Shown here piece by piece: positions 1,924 to 26,070 of a stretch of 64,000 nt of DNA. The translations under genes were made by a program, and so were the position numbers. Position 1 is the stretch's first letter. Each line of letters begins with the position of its first letter. The stretch is taken from the NCBI RefSeq assembly GCF_024807845.1, contig NZ_JANUEQ010000003.1, positions 186,001 through 250,000 on the forward strand, in the 5' to 3' direction. The DNA is from Klebsiella sp. BIGb0407. Lineage in GTDB: Bacteria; Pseudomonadota; Gammaproteobacteria; Enterobacterales; Enterobacteriaceae. The notes beneath the pieces are model-generated. The model did not search any database. It saw nothing but the letters and a program-made list of their open reading frames with translations, and was not told the DNA's origin.

Positions 1924-2996
1924 TTTTTTCACTAGTCGATTTCTCTTACGAGTCTTCCTTGGTTTATTTTTTGACTTATCATATAGATAAATCAATTCCC
2001 TTTACTGTCTTGTCTGATTACTCTCACAACTTAATTCAGCAGCTATCCCGTATATCCATGCCATCAGACTTCTGGAAGCCATAGATAGCTTTCTTAAGGT
2101 TCGCCGAATCATGAGGCCTGCTTATCTCTCTTGATACTTCAAGTCACTAGGGGTGACTGACATTCAAAAAATTGAATCACATCGCTTATCTATGCTCATC
2201 ACCTGTCTTCAGGTTACACCGATAAGCAACGAAAATTATTTTTTGTATATATTTAGCGATAATCCTAAAAACAAATAACATTGATAATATCACTGGCATA
2301 TTTATATTTTACCGCATTGATAATGCAGACATTTCTTCTCATAAAAGTTACTTCATCATTATTACTGAATACTGATTTGATAACTGTTAAAGAACGATAT
2401 TTTTATGAAAAAAAAGAATCCATTTTTAGCAATGACTAAAACGACATGGTGTTTCTGACAGGAGCAGAGCTATTCTTTGATATTTGTCGTAACATTTATC
2501 CGTCAGCAATATGTTTTGCTATAATCACACAATGTAAAAATGAAGCATTCGATTTGTTACTTTTTATCGTACATTATTTATAACAGCACTGATGAATTTT
2601 AAAAAATTGAATGACTTCTAATATATATGCTGATTGACTATTTCTTATTCTGCTCTGCAGCATGTCCGGAAAGAGCTGACGTTTAAACTATAGATCTAAA
2701 TGCTTTATCCCGATAGCGATGAAAGACACAAAAAAATCCGACCATTCCTGCTGCGCAGTCAAGCAATAACAGACAAAAAACACGTACTAACAAGCAATAT
2801 GAGATTAAAAATTCATCAATAAAACCGAATCCAGAATTTAATACCATTAAAGATTTAGAATAACCCTTCATTCATTTGATAATTTATTTCTATTTCAGGG
2901 AACTCGCACCCTTCAAATCTTGCAGTAGCAAGAGTACATTGTGAAATATCTGCTTCCACGGCGGGAAGCAACGCTAACAACAAAGGTCACCGTTTC
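1924..2996. promoter_or_regulatory. 1.07-kb non-coding interval between divergent lrhA and alaA
   Basis: Very AT-rich, with no convincing gene. In E. coli lrhA has a long (several hundred nt) untranslated leader that is controlled post-transcriptionally. Here a nested structure lies at 2184-2227 on the lrhA side: outer arms GCTTATC/GATAAGC around an inner ACCTG/CAGGT. Two further short inverted repeats lie at 2142-2158 (AGTCAC/GTGACT) and 2162-2177 (ATTCAA/TTGAAT). Near alaA a hairpin GCTTCC/GGAAGC occurs at 2952-2969. A 62-codon minus-strand frame at 2683-2871 does not look like a real protein. Confidence 0.5.
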
Positions 2997-4211
2997 ATGT
3001 CCCCTATCGAAAAATCCAGTAAACTTGATAATGTCTGTTATGACATCCGCGGCCCGGTACTGAAAGAGGCCAAGCGCCTCGAAGAGGAAGGCAATAAAGT
3101 CCTTAAGCTGAATATTGGTAACCCTGCGCCATTTGGCTTTGACGCACCGGATGAAATCCTGGTGGATGTGATTCGTAATCTGCCTACAGCCCAAGGTTAT
3201 TGCGATTCCAAGGGCTTATATTCCGCCCGTAAGGCTATCATGCAGCACTACCAGGCACGAGGTATGCGTGATGTCACGGTGGAAGATATTTACATTGGTA
3301 ACGGCGTATCAGAACTCATTGTTCAGTCAATGCAGGCTTTGCTGAACAGTGGTGATGAAATGCTGGTCCCGGCTCCGGATTACCCTCTCTGGACGGCGGC
3401 GGTTTCATTGTCCAGCGGTAAAGCTGTTCACTATCTCTGTGATGAAAGCGCTGACTGGTTCCCCGATCTTGATGATATTCGTGCCAAAATAACGCCACGT
3501 ACCCGCGGGATCGTAATTATTAACCCGAATAACCCAACCGGGGCTGTGTACTCTAAAGAGCTGCTATTAGAAATCGTCGAACTTGCGCGTCAGCATAACC
3601 TGATAATCTTTGCTGATGAAATCTACGATAAGATCCTCTATGACGACGCAGAGCATCATTCTATTGCTGCCCTGGCACCCGATTTGTTAACAATCACCTT
3701 CAATGGTTTATCAAAAACCTATCGTGTCGCCGGATTCCGTCAGGGCTGGATGGTCCTTAGCGGCCCGAAAAAACACGCTAAAGGTTATATTGAAGGTCTG
3801 GAAATGCTGGCATCTATGCGCCTTTGTGCGAATGTGCCCGCTCAGCATGCGATTCAAACAGCGCTCGGAGGCTATCAGAGCATCAGTGAATTCATTGTGC
3901 CCGGAGGGCGTTTATATGAGCAACGTAATCGGGCGTTTGAACTCATTAATGAAATTCCTGGCGTGTCTTGCGTTAAGCCTCGCGGCGCGCTGTATATGTT
4001 CCCGAAAATTGACGCGAAACGTTTCAACATTCATGACGATCAGAAAATGGTGTTAGATTTTCTGCTTCAGGAAAAAGTGCTGCTGGTTCAGGGGACCGCT
4101 TTTAACTGGCCGTCGCCCGATCATTTCAGAATAGTGACGTTACCCCGTGTCGATGAGCTGGAAATGGCTATCACTAAGCTGGGTCGTTTCCTTAGCCACT
4201 ATCACCAGTAA
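2997..4211 (+). CDS. alaA: Glutamate-pyruvate (alanine) aminotransferase AlaA
   Basis: PLP-dependent class I/II aminotransferase that makes L-alanine from pyruvate and glutamate in the cytoplasm. 404 residues, about 405 in E. coli, with near identity along the whole length. Visible fold-type I motifs are NPNNPTGAVYS (about 177-187), FADEIYDKILYDD (about 205-217), and the PLP Schiff-base lysine in FNGLSKTYR (K240). The conserved arginine for substrate carboxylate lies in HFRIVTLPR near the C-terminus. The start matches the E. coli N-terminus MSPIEKSSKL. It is divergent from lrhA and followed by a strong inverted repeat and then yfbR. Confidence 0.97.
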   Translation: MSPIEKSSKLDNVCYDIRGPVLKEAKRLEEEGNKVLKLNIGNPAPFGFDAPDEILVDVIRNLPTAQGYCDSKGLYSARKAIMQHYQARGMRDVTVEDIYIGNGVSELIVQSMQALLNSGDEMLVPAPDYPLWTAAVSLSSGKAVHYLCDESADWFPDLDDIRAKITPRTRGIVIINPNNPTGAVYSKELLLEIVELARQHNLIIFADEIYDKILYDDAEHHSIAALAPDLLTITFNGLSKTYRVAGFRQGWMVLSGPKKHAKGYIEGLEMLASMRLCANVPAQHAIQTALGGYQSISEFIVPGGRLYEQRNRAFELINEIPGVSCVKPRGALYMFPKIDAKRFNIHDDQKMVLDFLLQEKVLLVQGTAFNWPSPDHFRIVTLPRVDELEMAITKLGRFLSHYHQ

Positions 4212-20201: not shown

Positions 20202-20217
20202 TGCAGTTTTCGTGCCA
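20202..20217 (-). promoter_or_regulatory. Sigma-54 promoter of argT
   Basis: On the minus strand TGGCACGAAAACTGCA has GG and GC exactly ten bases apart, matching TGGCAC-N5-TTGCA. The start of transcription would be near 20190, about 57 bases before the argT ATG. In Salmonella argT is an NtrC/sigma-54-activated gene, so the position and match agree. A partial NtrC-like half site, TTGGTGC, occurs near 20396-20402. Confidence 0.85.
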
Positions 20218-21375: not shown

Positions 21376-21780
21376 TCAATATTTCATCCTGAACGCCTCG
21401 GCCATCATCCCTGGCTTGTGCATGTGATTATTGTTACGAGCCATTTTATGCGCTTCGGGTTTCAGGATAATAATCAGCAGCCAGGTATCAGGTTCTATTG
21501 CACCCTGACAGTAAACTAAATGAGCCCTATCGCTGGTACGTTTGAATTGACGTAAAAACTGAGGAAAAGGAGCGTCTGCATCAGCAAGATGAATGTGGGC
21601 CACTTGCTCTTGTTTTACCAGGGGCCAGGTGCGGTCATCATCATAAGGCGCATCACGACCAAAGGTATCTGGCAACACCCCGTCTTTTTTATAAGACAAA
21701 AAATCCGCCACCAAATCATCAAGCTCTTGCTGACTTAATTGCTGGCGGATCGGTGCTGACTTGAAAATCCTTATGCTCAT
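21376..21780 (-). CDS. yafO: Type II toxin YafO (mRNA interferase)
   Basis: Ribosome-associated mRNA interferase of the YafO family. 134 residues against 132 in E. coli, and similar throughout: SYKKDGVLPDTFGRDAPYDDDRTWPL, then VAHIHLADADAPFPQFLRQF, HLVYCQGAIEPDTWLLIIIL and the C-terminus KPGMMAEAFRMKY. The start overlaps the yafN stop by four bases, the usual antitoxin-first coupling. In E. coli K-12 yafNO sits in the SOS-regulated dinB operon. Here it stands alone, without dinB or yafP, inside an accessory insertion. Confidence 0.9.
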   Translation of the reverse strand: MSIRIFKSAPIRQQLSQQELDDLVADFLSYKKDGVLPDTFGRDAPYDDDRTWPLVKQEQVAHIHLADADAPFPQFLRQFKRTSDRAHLVYCQGAIEPDTWLLIIILKPEAHKMARNNNHMHKPGMMAEAFRMKY

Positions 21781-22070
21781 TCCGTGAACTCGGTAAGATC
21801 CTTATCAGAGGCGTTCTGCAGCAGTTGCTGCCCACTATCGGCAATATCACTTAAACGTTCAGCCGTTGGCCTGAATCGCGCGGCGGTATGTATCCGCCCC
21901 TGTTTCTCTTCTAACAAGTCGATCAACTCTTCAAATACTTTGGCACTAACCATATAACCAGCAGGTCGGTTATTAGAGAGAACAGCAACCGGTTCATCAA
22001 TAAAATATTTCGCCGGGTTTTTTCTTAGTTCGGTGATATTAATAGATTTTTCTGCGAGGATACGTTCCAT
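21777..22070 (-). CDS. yafN: Type II antitoxin YafN (Phd/YefM family)
   Basis: Antitoxin that binds YafO and autorepresses its operon. 97 residues, the same length as E. coli YafN. The N-terminal Phd/YefM DNA-binding domain is strongly conserved (ERILAEKSINITELRKNP, then AVLSNNRPAGYMVS). The C-terminal toxin-binding tail is more variable and acidic. It has a GAGGTGA ribosome binding site. Upstream repeated ATGTG motifs (22085-22128) are candidate operator repeats. It overlaps yafO by four bases. Confidence 0.92.
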   Translation of the reverse strand: MERILAEKSINITELRKNPAKYFIDEPVAVLSNNRPAGYMVSAKVFEELIDLLEEKQGRIHTAARFRPTAERLSDIADSGQQLLQNASDKDLTEFTE

Positions 22071-22859: not shown

Positions 22860-23726
22860 ATGCCTGATAACGATGCGTTACTCCCTCCAGAAGAAACCCC
22901 GGTAATACGCTCATTTAATCATCGTATCAGGCATATTTTGCCGTCTTTGCCACCTTCAGAAAAACGCCTGGGTGAGTTTGTGCTGCGTTTTTCCGGTGAT
23001 TTTGCCGCTTATTCAGCCTCAGAGCTGGCCGAAATGGTGGGTGTCTCTAATGCGACAGTCAGCCGCTTTATCCGCCGCCTGGGCTATGAGAATTACGAGG
23101 CTGCCCGCCTGCATGTCCGCAGTGAAAACCAGGTTGCCGATACCGCAGCTGAGAGTGAATCAACGAATCAAAATGGCTGGGACTCCACCCTGTCACTGGC
23201 AGAAAGTAACTTGCGCCAGACACTGTCAGATTTGTCAGAAGAAGAGGTCAATGATATTGCTGACGCGATTATCCAGGCCCGGCGAGTCTGCTTCTTCGGC
23301 ACCCGTAATAACCATAACTTTGCCTCTTATCTACGCTGGCAGCTTCTTCAGGTTATCCCTGGCGGCGATGTTCTGCCGGGAGCGGGTGAGACACTGGGAG
23401 AGTTTTTACCCGGATTTAATCAGGACGATATGCTGGTGGTATTTGATTTGCGCCGTAGCCAGCCCGTTACTGAACAATTTACCCGACTTGCCCATCAGCA
23501 AGGGGTAAAAATCCTCTATATCACCGATAACTACGCTACCCCCCCTCTCTCTGCTAACTGGATTTTACGCTGTGAAACTAAATCAGCCGGGCCCATCGAC
23601 AATCATGTTGCAGCCATGATGCTTTGCCATATCCTCGCCAGCCGGGTGATACAACGCGTTTCAGCCTCAGGTAAACAGCGCCTGGCATTGATTGAACAAG
23701 CTCACGATCAGCTGAAAGAGCTGTAG
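22860..23726 (+). CDS. MurR/RpiR-family transcriptional regulator
   Basis: 288 residues. The N-terminal HTH_6 domain (about 15-95) has SASELAEMVGVSNATVSRFIRRLGY split as recognition helix VSNATVSRFIRRLG. The C-terminal SIS domain (about 125-255) has FFGTRNNHNFASYLRWQL and VFDLRRSQP. SIS domains bind phosphosugars, but some RpiR regulators control amino-acid, hydantoin or purine catabolism. It is directly upstream of, and on the same strand as, an MFS transporter-racemase pair, and is the obvious candidate to bind the two GAAAA-N4-TTTTC repeats between them. Confidence 0.88.
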   Translation: MPDNDALLPPEETPVIRSFNHRIRHILPSLPPSEKRLGEFVLRFSGDFAAYSASELAEMVGVSNATVSRFIRRLGYENYEAARLHVRSENQVADTAAESESTNQNGWDSTLSLAESNLRQTLSDLSEEEVNDIADAIIQARRVCFFGTRNNHNFASYLRWQLLQVIPGGDVLPGAGETLGEFLPGFNQDDMLVVFDLRRSQPVTEQFTRLAHQQGVKILYITDNYATPPLSANWILRCETKSAGPIDNHVAAMMLCHILASRVIQRVSASGKQRLALIEQAHDQLKEL

Positions 23727-23856
23727 ACGCTCTGCCGGAAACCCAATAGCACACTGAAAGGGCAGTATCTGCTCTGAGTTTGTGCATCCTTTATCCTGGT
23801 ACGGTTTCTGTCCTTCTTTTTTCAGGCCTCTGAATGGCTTTCCCTCGCCTTTTAAT

Positions 23857-23870
23857 GAAAATATATTTTC
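23857..23870. promoter_or_regulatory. Operator-like palindrome 1 (GAAAA-TATA-TTTTC)
   Basis: Perfect 14-base palindrome 76 bases upstream of the MFS start. The same arms recur at 23887-23900, with centres 30 bp apart, close to three helical turns. This suggests cooperative binding by the adjacent RpiR regulator. Confidence 0.6.
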
Positions 23871-23880
23871 TTTAAATTTA

Positions 23881-23896
23881 TGGCATGAAAAATGCT
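23881..23896 (+). promoter_or_regulatory. Sigma-54-like promoter of the MFS-racemase operon
   Basis: TGGCATGAAAAATGCT has GG and GC exactly ten bases apart and keeps TGGCA and TGC of the consensus. Transcription would start near 23908, about 38 bases before the MFS ATG. I could not identify a convincing NtrC site upstream, so this remains a candidate. Confidence 0.5.
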
Positions 23897-23902
23897 TTTC
23901 AT
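23885..23902. promoter_or_regulatory. Operator-like palindrome 2 (ATGAAAA-ATGC-TTTTCAT)
   Basis: Perfect seven-base arms around a four-base spacer. The core GAAAA-N4-TTTTC is identical to the upstream copy. It overlaps the sigma-54-like element at 23881-23896, so a protein bound here would block that promoter. Confidence 0.6.
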
Positions 23903-23945
23903 AAATAGCGATATCACACTCTACTGGTGGCGACAGGAGCCGTTT

Positions 23946-25349
23946 ATGACACAACTGGTACCGGAAACAACAACACAGCACCACAATTCCTCAATGGGGC
24001 AATTAGAAACAGCCCTCGATAACATAGGCACTACACGCTCACACCGGATGATCATCCTGATGGTGGTGATTGGTGTCATGTTTGATGTTTTTGAACAGAA
24101 TGCGATTGGGCTTATTGCCCCCCTGCTACAGATGTCATGGGGGTTAACGGCGACAGATATTGGTTTTCTGAATACCATTACCTTTATTTCAGCCGCTTCG
24201 GGGCGCTTATTATCCGGCTACTTTGCCGACCGCTTCGGGCGTCGGTTTATGCTGAACGTCAATTTATTACTCTTTACGCTGGGTGCAATTCTTTGTGCTC
24301 TGGCGCCGAATTATGCCACTCTGGCTATCGGGCGTTTAATTGTCGGTTTTGGGCTGGGCGGAGAGATAACCACCGCCGTGACTCTGCTGGCTGAATTTTG
24401 TTCATCACGCTTTCGCGGCACCGCCGTCGGCATCATCAACGTTGGCGGAGGTGGCCTGGGTAATATGCTTGCCCCGGCATTCGCTTTACTGGTGTTCTAT
24501 CTGTTCCCTGGCGAAAATAGCTGGCGCTGGCTATTTGCCTGCCTGGTGCTCCCTGCTCTGTTGCTGATCCTCTACCGTCGTTTTATACCCGAGACCCCAC
24601 GCTATCTGGTCAGTCAGGGGGAGATACAACAGGCTAACCATGTCCTATCTATGCTGGCTGCCGGTAAATTGCTGCATCAGACTTTCCCGGTTTCGCAGTA
24701 TATCGATGAAAAACCGGTCACCGATCGGGCGGATACGCAGCGTGTCGGTTCATGGCGAATGATATTTTCCGGTTCTTATCGTAAGACGACGATATCGATG
24801 GGTATCGCTTCATGGATGACCTTTGGCGCTCAGCTGGCACTGCTCACCTTGATGCCAACAATTCTGGTTTCACAGGGCTATTCCATTAATAAAAGCTTTC
24901 TGTTTACCATTATTATGCAGAGCGGAAGCCTTCTCGGCGCACTGACCGCATCCTATTTAGCCTTTTATTTCCCGAGAAAAGTCATTTTGACCTGCGGCTC
25001 GATTGCAGCCTGCGCATCGGCGATTGCCTTTGGTTCCTTCACTGATAGTGTAGCGACCATTCTACTGACCGGCGCGCTGTTTCAATTTTGTGTGTTGTTA
25101 CTTAATACCACCGTCTGGGTTTATGCCCCGGAGTTATTCCCGACAAAAATGCGTGGGTTTGGTACTTCCTTCATTCTGGCAATGGGCACCATCGGTGGCG
25201 CACTGATGCAGATCCCTGCGGGTAAGATGTTTGACCTGATGGGCACAACGGGGCTTTTTGCTATGATTGCCGGCATGTATATTATTTTTCTTATCGCTAT
25301 TCAGTTCTCGTCTGAGACCTTTAAGCGTTCAATAGACAGAGCAGCATAA
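23946..25349 (+). CDS. MFS transporter (aromatic acid/sugar-acid symporter-like)
   Basis: 467 residues, 12 predicted membrane segments. The MFS motif between helices 2 and 3 is GYFADRFGRRFMLN (about 105-118). A conserved acidic residue lies in VMFDVFEQNAIG of helix 1, and the second-half signature is YAPELFPTKMRGFG. These features suit the AAHS/sugar-porter-like branch; the substrate is not identifiable. The ATG at 23946 has AGGAG seven bases before it, so I reject the upstream frame from 23892. Its TAA overlaps the racemase ATG by one base (TAATG), so the two are coupled. Confidence 0.87.
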   Translation: MTQLVPETTTQHHNSSMGQLETALDNIGTTRSHRMIILMVVIGVMFDVFEQNAIGLIAPLLQMSWGLTATDIGFLNTITFISAASGRLLSGYFADRFGRRFMLNVNLLLFTLGAILCALAPNYATLAIGRLIVGFGLGGEITTAVTLLAEFCSSRFRGTAVGIINVGGGGLGNMLAPAFALLVFYLFPGENSWRWLFACLVLPALLLILYRRFIPETPRYLVSQGEIQQANHVLSMLAAGKLLHQTFPVSQYIDEKPVTDRADTQRVGSWRMIFSGSYRKTTISMGIASWMTFGAQLALLTLMPTILVSQGYSINKSFLFTIIMQSGSLLGALTASYLAFYFPRKVILTCGSIAACASAIAFGSFTDSVATILLTGALFQFCVLLLNTTVWVYAPELFPTKMRGFGTSFILAMGTIGGALMQIPAGKMFDLMGTTGLFAMIAGMYIIFLIAIQFSSETFKRSIDRAA

Positions 25350-26014
25350 TGACAGGTTATAAAATTGCGCTAATCAACCCGAATAGTTCTGTGGCAACCA
25401 GTGAAATGATGGGCAGACTGGCAGAAGCCTGCCTGCCTGACGGGTTCCGGCTTCAGGTGATTACCGCAGAAAAAACGCCTGAAATGCTCGTCACGACTCA
25501 AGATATTACGCTCGCTAAGCTTGAGGTCGAGCGTCTTGCTATGGCTGTAGCGAAATCCGTGGATGCTATCGTGGTGGGTGCTTTTGGCGACCCGGCCCTC
25601 TCGAAATTACGGGAGGTCATATCCGTGCCAGCCATAGGTATCGGCGAGGCTTCACTGCTGGCAGCAAGCCTGGGGCAACGCCCCTTTGCGGTCGTCACCG
25701 TGACTCCGGGCTTAAGAGATTCTATATCTGGCTATATCGGCCGTCTGGAGCTCAGTCACCTCTGCCGTGGAGTCTTTATTACTGAAGAGGACGCCAGTTT
25801 GTTGATGGACGACCCACGGTATCTTGAGCAGCAGCTGTATCAAGCCTCTTTGTTAGCGATTGCTAAAGGCGCTGAGGCGATTGTTATTGGCGGCGGCCCT
25901 TTAGCGCCAGCGGCTGAACGCCTGAAGACCAGACTTCCTGTTCCGGTTATTTCACCGCTTATTGCCGGTATCTGTAGCGCTGTTGAACAGATAAGTAAAA
26001 GCCCGAAGAGCTGA
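25349..26014 (+). CDS. Asp/Glu/hydantoin racemase family protein
   Basis: 221 residues of the Asp/Glu/hydantoin racemase superfamily, typically hydantoin or amino-acid racemases and arylmalonate decarboxylase relatives. The N-terminus is IALINPNSSVATSEMM. The first catalytic-Cys position of hydantoin racemases appears as Gly in VGAFGDPAL, and the second as Gly in VIGGGPLAP. The usual two-cysteine racemase pair is therefore not evident. This argues for caution about racemase activity; a lyase, decarboxylase or ligand-binding role is possible. It is translationally coupled to the transporter. Confidence 0.82.
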   Translation: MTGYKIALINPNSSVATSEMMGRLAEACLPDGFRLQVITAEKTPEMLVTTQDITLAKLEVERLAMAVAKSVDAIVVGAFGDPALSKLREVISVPAIGIGEASLLAASLGQRPFAVVTVTPGLRDSISGYIGRLELSHLCRGVFITEEDASLLMDDPRYLEQQLYQASLLAIAKGAEAIVIGGGPLAPAAERLKTRLPVPVISPLIAGICSAVEQISKSPKS

Positions 26015-26040
26015 GCTACGAGCTCCCTGTTCTCAGGGCA

Positions 26041-26070
26041 AAAAAAACCCACAGTAATCACACTGTGGGT
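26041..26070 (-). terminator. Intrinsic terminator of purF
   Basis: On the minus strand ACCCACAG-TGTGATTA-CTGTGGGT is followed by TTTTTTT. It lies 20 bases past the purF stop and also faces the end of the racemase gene. Confidence 0.9.

Follow-up and report, generated by a model that had tools for sequence, protein, structure and literature searches.

We analysed a 64,000-nt stretch of the Klebsiella sp. BIGb0407 genome (hereafter the window), in which a gene for an RpiR-family regulator is followed, after a gap of 219 bp, by genes for a major facilitator superfamily (MFS) transporter and an Asp/Glu/hydantoin-racemase-family protein (Table 1). The gap probably holds a sigma-54 promoter that the adjacent RpiR protein represses; a ligand imported by the MFS transporter would release RpiR, and the third protein is probably something other than a racemase. 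Comparison with related loci brings out the putative operators, a recurring sigma-54 core, the gene module itself and the loss of both catalytic cysteines from the racemase-family protein.

In the scheme that we propose, sigma-54 RNA polymerase would bind TGGCATGAAAAATGCT and act with an enhancer-binding activator, for which NtrC is the first candidate, and the MFS and racemase-family genes would be transcribed as one mRNA from ~23907. RpiR would bind two operators and exclude the polymerase; in the simplest mechanism, RpiR bound at operator 2 would occupy most of the DNA needed for contact with the sigma-54 polymerase. A probably anionic ligand (carboxylate- or ureide-like) would release RpiR, the transporter would import this compound, and the racemase-family protein would probably bind it or perform another reaction. 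We infer repression, the ligand class and nitrogen control in this scheme.

Twin palindromes and a putative sigma-54 core in the gap

The gap contains two GAAAA-N4-TTTTC palindromes (GAAAATATATTTTC and GAAAAATGCTTTTC) with identical 5-base arms and centres 30 bp apart, and the coordinates and pairing given for them in an initial annotation of this DNA were confirmed. No other match to the pattern occurs in the window (2 matches, 0.12 expected; none of 100 dinucleotide shuffles contained two). Across the 5.59-Mb host genome there are 22 sites including these two, compared with 4 for a reversed control pattern. A lone site is thus not rare, and it is the pairing and the position that carry the information.

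The second palindrome overlies TGGCATGAAAAATGCT, which had been pointed out for its sigma-54 spacing; GG-N10-GC is indeed present, with one mismatch to the consensus TGGCAYG-N4-TTGCW. The transcription start in Table 1 follows from sigma-54 geometry and would leave a leader of 39 nt before the ATG of the MFS gene, which is preceded by AGGAG. The stop codon of that gene (TAA, 25347-25349) and the ATG of the racemase-family gene (25349) share one base in TAATG, the overlap that the initial annotation had described.

As a sanity check, the same sigma-54 scan found a sigma-54-like core upstream of argT (TGGCACGAAAACTGCA, 20202-20217, minus strand), a gene whose promoter is known to use sigma-54 in Salmonella. 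This core also has GG-N10-GC spacing and precedes a gene for uptake of a nitrogen source. Unlike the core in the RpiR-MFS gap, it has no GAAAA-N4-TTTTC palindrome over it. Two NtrC-like matches lie 186-199 bp before the argT core (p=0.05, shuffles).

Predicted operators and composite elements at related loci

Conservation of the palindromes was examined at 60 loci with a relative of the window RpiR, window included, in segments covering 450 bp after and 350 bp before the RpiR gene; rows on contigs of equal length, which are very likely duplicates (L007/L101/L136 and L009/L045), were kept in all counts. The operator was scored as TGAAA-N6-TTTCA, with a threshold of at least nine matching letters out of ten, and was found beside the RpiR gene in 52 of the 60 loci. 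Exact sites numbered 54, as against 0.0 in shuffles (10 per segment), and pairs 27-32 bp apart were present in 27 of 120 segments (0.025 expected). The operator was not found beside RpiR in the remaining eight loci (L008, L010, L072, L150, L152, L153, L156, L157), all of which are of an ATP-binding cassette (ABC) transporter type with the ABC genes and the racemase-family gene upstream of RpiR; because these genes precede RpiR, the promoter there would lie ~6 kb off. At the heads of ABC operons the operator was present in 7/7 cases (L159-L164, from six of the eight operator-less loci, and L165), each preceding the same substrate-binding protein (annotated in L159; the others are 84-97% identical to it). 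Because of this conservation across loci and operon heads, the palindromes are read as predicted operators of this RpiR group, as the initial annotation had supposed.

Sigma-54 cores were then compared. When 141 segments from 47 loci were ranked by a sigma-54 consensus score with shuffles, the five lowest p-values (0.005-0.010) belonged to L003, L005, L009, L068 and the window, in each case for a sense-strand core after RpiR; the sixth (0.020) was L004, which shared its rank with an unrelated segment, the one preceding the L094 regulator. We defined a composite as an operator 6-12 bases before TGG[CA]-N8-TG[CT]. It was present in 8/60 loci with an operator-to-core spacing of 7-9 bases, and in none of the shuffles (100 per segment). 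The positive loci, which span alpha-, beta- and gamma-proteobacteria, are the window, a Comamonadaceae plasmid (L068), two Sinorhizobium loci (L003, L005), Thalassospira (L004), Rhizobium (L149), Neorhizobium (L151) and L143, and their consensus is an operator, 7-9 nt, and TGGCAYGAAA-NN-TG. All 16 bases of TGGCATGAAAAATGCT are shared with L068 and the first 15 with L143; TGGCATGAAAAATGCTTTTC is common to the window and L068, although the two RpiR proteins are only 47.5% identical. The ABC operon heads, obtained only after the pattern had been written, test it more fairly, and the composite was present in 7/7 (in L164 the first T is replaced by C, giving CGGC). In the host genome, the pattern GAAA-N6-TTTC-N8..12-GGCAYGAAA-NN-TGC has a single match, at this locus (control, 0). 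The sigma-54 promoter proposed earlier is thus supported by a core that recurs overlapping or adjoining the predicted operators.

Core-like strings with no preceding operator were seen in L009, L094, L153 and for one of two in L143. The composite pattern also matched once in a viral collection (L168), but there it falls within an open reading frame (2496-3137), and we rejected it as a chance match. In the Sinorhizobium gaps (L003, 4940-5127; L005, 4989-5176) the composite element is accompanied by a second operator pair, 29 bp apart and nearer the MFS start, which suggests two tandem promoters.

Several observations weigh against a sigma-54 promoter under an RpiR repressor. Consensus matches with up to two mismatches number 18 in the window, 24 being expected; since this count is at chance, a sigma-54 match proves nothing alone and the support is comparative. 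The composite pattern was written after several of the eight positive loci were already known. In 7/8 RpiR-adjacent composites, operator 2 departs from the full palindrome and keeps 6-9 of its 10 letters. A sigma-54 core was found after RpiR in 0/29 loci of family f194, though 29/29 have the operator, and in none of the gaps of S. meliloti, Shinella, Aminobacter and Marinovum, where operators are also present. Finally, a search for enhancer sites gave nothing convincing for the window (best p=0.11) or for most other composite loci. Sigma-54 control is accordingly not universal for the module but a property of part of the RpiR family, to which, judging by its composite element, the window belongs; the core-less loci presumably use sigma-70.

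These observations raise the alternative that the sigma-54 likeness arises incidentally from the operator sequence (CATGAAAA...) and that the twin operators control an ordinary sigma-70 promoter. The many related gaps with twin operators and no core, one of which (L070) shows TATTAT between the operators (by eye), speak for it, as does the chance-level count of matches in the window. Yet the conserved letters extend beyond the palindrome, to a TGG before it and a TGC in its spacer, and these are sigma-54 invariants. They persist in L003, L005, L149, L159-L163 and L165 despite decay of the right half of operator 2: TGGCAYG and TGC are kept next to arms such as TTCC or TCTC, so the operator alone hardly explains the conservation. 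Nor did a simple consensus scan of 23700-24000 find a sigma-70-like promoter. We consider a sigma-70 promoter with a fortuitous core unlikely.

The main alternative to repression is that RpiR is an activator or a sigma-54 co-activator, with operator 1 as the activating site. Operator 1 lies just upstream of the core, with 9-11 bases between its end and GG-24, and is generally better conserved than operator 2 in the composites linked to ABC or to tripartite ATP-independent periplasmic (TRAP) transporters, and an RpiR-family activator exists by name in a reference title. However, operator 2 sits on the -24/-12 core, intact in the window (10/10 letters) and nearly so in L068 (9/10), and HpxU, the nearest named relative, is termed a repressor in the title of its paper. 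We regard activation by RpiR as unlikely and prefer repression at a sigma-54 core.

To our knowledge, little attention has been given to repressor operators embedded in a sigma-54 core, and no description of the RpiR-racemase-sigma-54 combination was found among titles and abstract openings of open-licence PubMed Central articles. The initial annotation had called the combination unusual; operators lying on a sigma-54 core are real here, but they are not peculiar to this locus and recur in part of the RpiR subfamily. The alpha-, beta- and gamma-proteobacterial set with its three kinds of transporter could serve to study the sharing of DNA between a repressor and a polymerase that depends on an enhancer.

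RpiR ligand pocket, HpxU-type paralogues and possible nitrogen control

The RpiR protein has both an N-terminal HTH_6 and a C-terminal SIS domain (Pfam PF01418 and PF01380, above cut-off). Its SIS loops read GTRNNH and FDLRRS, compared with GIGASG and ISYSGE in MurR-like proteins of the host (L023) and of a genus member (L013). Loops of the latter type bind phosphosugars in MurR-like RpiR proteins. Similar arginine-bearing loops are found in L068 (GYRNN, FALRRS) and in an HpxU-like paralogue of the host (GMRNS, IAFRRR). Two other host RpiR proteins (L019, L027) are of the Gly/Ser type; L030 departs from that type in its first loop (GFRAS) but not in its second (IGFSPY). An Arg in loop 1 and Arg-Arg in loop 2 were present in every RpiR row of the alignment, from which L005, L069, L154 and L155 were left out because their stretches start ahead of a stop codon. 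Because conserved arginines take the place of the Gly and Ser/Thr seen in several RpiR proteins of the genus, the ligand is probably anionic (carboxylate- or ureide-like) and not a phosphosugar.

The palindromes can be compared with those of IolR, another RpiR-family protein, whose operators in Caulobacter and other alphaproteobacteria are GGAA-N6-TTCC (PMC2597717, excerpt). Both have a 6-bp spacer and occur in two copies in one promoter; they differ in their arms (GAAA/TTTC in the window, GGAA/TTCC for IolR), and sigma-54 is not mentioned for IolR in the excerpt.

HpxU is a closer comparison. The title of a 2013 paper by Guzman et al. presents it as an RpiR-type protein that represses genes of allantoate catabolism in Klebsiella pneumoniae. 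In the host, a paralogue with 30% identity to the window RpiR (L090, 13934-14773) is likely of HpxU type. The genes clustered with it encode an AtzE-family amidohydrolase, a PuuE allantoinase, an amino-acid-type ABC transporter and what is likely an allantoin racemase. Like the window RpiR, this paralogue has arginine-bearing SIS motifs and a sigma-54 core in the following gap, the likeness to HpxU itself in these motifs being drawn through this paralogue, which lies near purine-catabolism genes, and a loop-1 Arg also occurs in L030. The differences are several. The window RpiR belongs to another branch (27-35% identity to matches in the host family), its targets are an MFS transporter and a cysteine-less racemase-family protein, its operators are placed differently relative to the core, and purine or allantoate catabolic genes are not adjacent to it. 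Given the HpxU repressor and the sigma-54 cores of the paralogues, a counterpart of the regulatory logic proposed here is already known, at least in part.

A sigma-54 core was found in the gap after RpiR in 28/31 paralogue loci of the genus and family (L012, L015, L039-L067), all except L056, L060 and L061. The 31 loci fall in two tree branches, and many of the cores read TGGCACATTAGTTGCA; a palindrome overlaps the -12 element in L059 and L064. The gene after the gap was identified in the host only, where it encodes an amino-acid-type ABC transporter. NtrC-like sequences were scored against shuffles with a 12-letter consensus, TGCACC-N5-GGTGCA. Sites with p ≤0.10 were present in 21 of 26 core-bearing paralogue gaps (L058 and L067 set aside), and p was 0.12-0.36 in L049, L050, L066, L012 and the host's L015 paralogue (0.27). 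These enteric gaps are a clean set for study of HpxU-type control. In the window, two weak NtrC-like sequences, AGCACACTGAAAGGGCA and TGCTCTGAGTTTGTGCA, precede the promoter (Table 1) and are suggestive only. Elsewhere among the composite loci p was at least 0.40 in L003, L004, L005, L068, L143 and L149, and 0.03 in L151. Enrichment of sigma-54 promoters has been described for COG4126, 'hydantoin racemase', in proteobacteria (PMC12316311, excerpt), a group to which the window protein (PF01177) may belong. Together with the weak NtrC-like sequences of the window and the stronger ones in most paralogue gaps, this is indirect evidence that the operon may be under nitrogen control; another activator is possible.

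The racemase-family protein and its gene module

The predicted structure of the racemase-family protein (predicted local distance difference test, pLDDT, 92.6; 7-sequence alignment) superposes on allantoin racemase with Z 30.8 and a root-mean-square deviation of 1.9. HpxA allantoin racemase structures (PDB 3qvj, 3qvk, 5lfd, 5lg5) matched over 216-217 residues with Z 30.3-30.8 and 24-26% identity, but the window protein has Ala and Gly in place of the catalytic Cys79 and Cys184 of the K. pneumoniae enzyme. Arylmalonate decarboxylase (PDB 2vlb, 3ixl, 3ixm) has the same superfamily fold (Z 17.1-17.7). That enzyme retains one catalytic cysteine, Cys188, a mutant of which is named in an entry title; the window protein has neither. 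With both catalytic positions occupied by Ala and Gly, two-thiol racemisation is unlikely, and since the allantoin-racemase fold is kept without the two thiols, a different reaction, or binding of a compound, is probable. The initial annotation was right about the DNA, and its reading of the enzyme, as one that converts an amino-acid-like or hydantoin-like compound, is not supported.

The same substitution is widespread. Ala/Gly was found at the catalytic positions in 33 of 39 aligned rows, of which 24 come with an MFS relative, six with ABC genes and three (L131, L132, L137) with neither recognised nearby; the host HpxA-like protein, included as the alignment reference, has both cysteines. 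TRAP-linked rows (L004, L143, L149, L151) have Cys/Ser and L123 has Ser/Gly. The one-thiol Cys/Ser pattern of the TRAP-linked proteins is distinct both from true racemases and from the Ala/Gly group. The motifs INPN, AFGDP, TP and IGGGPL are invariant among seven aligned proteins, and their conservation indicates that the protein is under selection. This strong conservation of fold and pocket (INPN, AFGDP, TP) is also what one would expect if the protein were still a racemase or epimerase whose catalysis depends on other residues instead of the two cysteines. We consider this unlikely: both positions are Ala/Gly in most rows, and the two cysteines are described as conserved across the superfamily in an excerpt of PMC12661438. 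Preferring a non-racemase, we note that the database annotation 'racemase' is probably wrong, as the racemase residues are absent, and that the module probably marks a widespread protein misnamed in this way.

The module is distributed sporadically. Among 295 genomes of the host family no close relative of the window RpiR was seen (best non-self identity, 35%), with matches at E ≤1e-30 in 77 of them, host included, and no relative above 29% identity was present in three other genomes of the genus. At 1e-40, matches were found in 2/369 genomes of the class, one being the host. Further matches were found in 4/398 genomes of the phylum (host included), in 29/349 of family f194 and 1/58 in one genus of that family, and in 4/289 of the class of genome G875. 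The 3.2-kb locus DNA had no match among E. coli records. The nearest RpiR relatives, ~41-48% identical, are in rhizobia, Thalassospira, Ralstonia, family f194 and the Comamonadaceae plasmid, with the same genes there; the MFS protein of the plasmid is 68% identical to that of the window. In other loci the transporter is of the TRAP (L004, L073, L143, L149, L151) or ABC type (L008, L010, L072, L150, L152, annotated as peptide/nickel type, L153, L156, L157) instead of MFS. When 44 RpiR loci were examined as larger stretches, a racemase-family gene was found in 38 (blastp E ≤1e-6) and an MFS relative of at least 45% identity in 24, which shows that the RpiR and racemase-family genes travel together while the transporter changes. 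The scattered distribution suggests horizontal transfer into the host. The G+C content of the operon (0.485-0.515) is near that of the flanking DNA (0.452-0.497) and is no argument for or against such transfer. Tentatively, and as something short of an even chance, these loci may represent a previously unnamed, horizontally spread proteobacterial scavenging module, in which one RpiR subfamily is combined with an importer that may be of MFS, TRAP or ABC type and with a conserved, thiol-free racemase-superfamily member with new chemistry, part of the family being run by a composite that combines a sigma-54 core and a repressor operator in one stretch and would thereby give a starved-AND-ligand-present logic.

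Table 1. Features of the RpiR-MFS-racemase-family locus (window coordinates; promoter positions relative to the inferred transcription start)
Feature	Coordinates	Strand	Remarks
RpiR-family regulator, 288 aa, HTH_6 + SIS	22860..23726	+	PF01418 E 1.1e-9, PF01380 E 6.4e-8
Weak NtrC-like sequence AGCACACTGAAAGGGCA	23748..23764	+	8/12 consensus letters; suggestive only
Weak NtrC-like sequence TGCTCTGAGTTTGTGCA	23770..23786	+	9/12 letters, p=0.11 vs shuffles; -137 to -121
Predicted operator 1, GAAAATATATTTTC	23857..23870		-50 to -37
Putative sigma-54 -24/-12 core TGGCATGAAAAATGCT	23881..23896	+	GG 23882-23883, GC 23894-23895
Predicted operator 2, GAAAAATGCTTTTC	23887..23900		-20 to -7; superimposed on sigma-54 core
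Inferred transcription start	23907	+	12 nt after -12 C, from sigma-54 geometry
MFS transporter, 467 aa	23946..25349	+	PF00083 E 6.1e-46; PF07690 also matched
Asp/Glu/hydantoin-racemase-family protein, 221 aa	25349..26014	+	PF01177 E 3.6e-34; without both catalytic cysteines (Ala78, Gly182)

The top NCBIfam match of the MFS protein is the aromatic acid/H+ symport family, with a score under the cut-off of that family. Besides the MFS and racemase-family genes, the neighbours of the regulator are purF (by its open reading frame), a histidine-phosphatase-family gene and a toxin-antitoxin pair. The latter is YafNO-like and lies on the minus strand between ubiX and the RpiR locus (21376-22070); its toxin is of the YafO family (PF13957 E 6.5e-40), and the overlapping Phd/YefM-type antitoxin scored 29.7 bits against a cut-off of 29.8. 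Directly past the operon, a hairpin, CCCACAGT-AATCAC-ACTGTGGG (26040-26069), adjoins eight consecutive A residues of the plus strand (by eye) and reads as a putative intrinsic terminator of the minus-strand purF.

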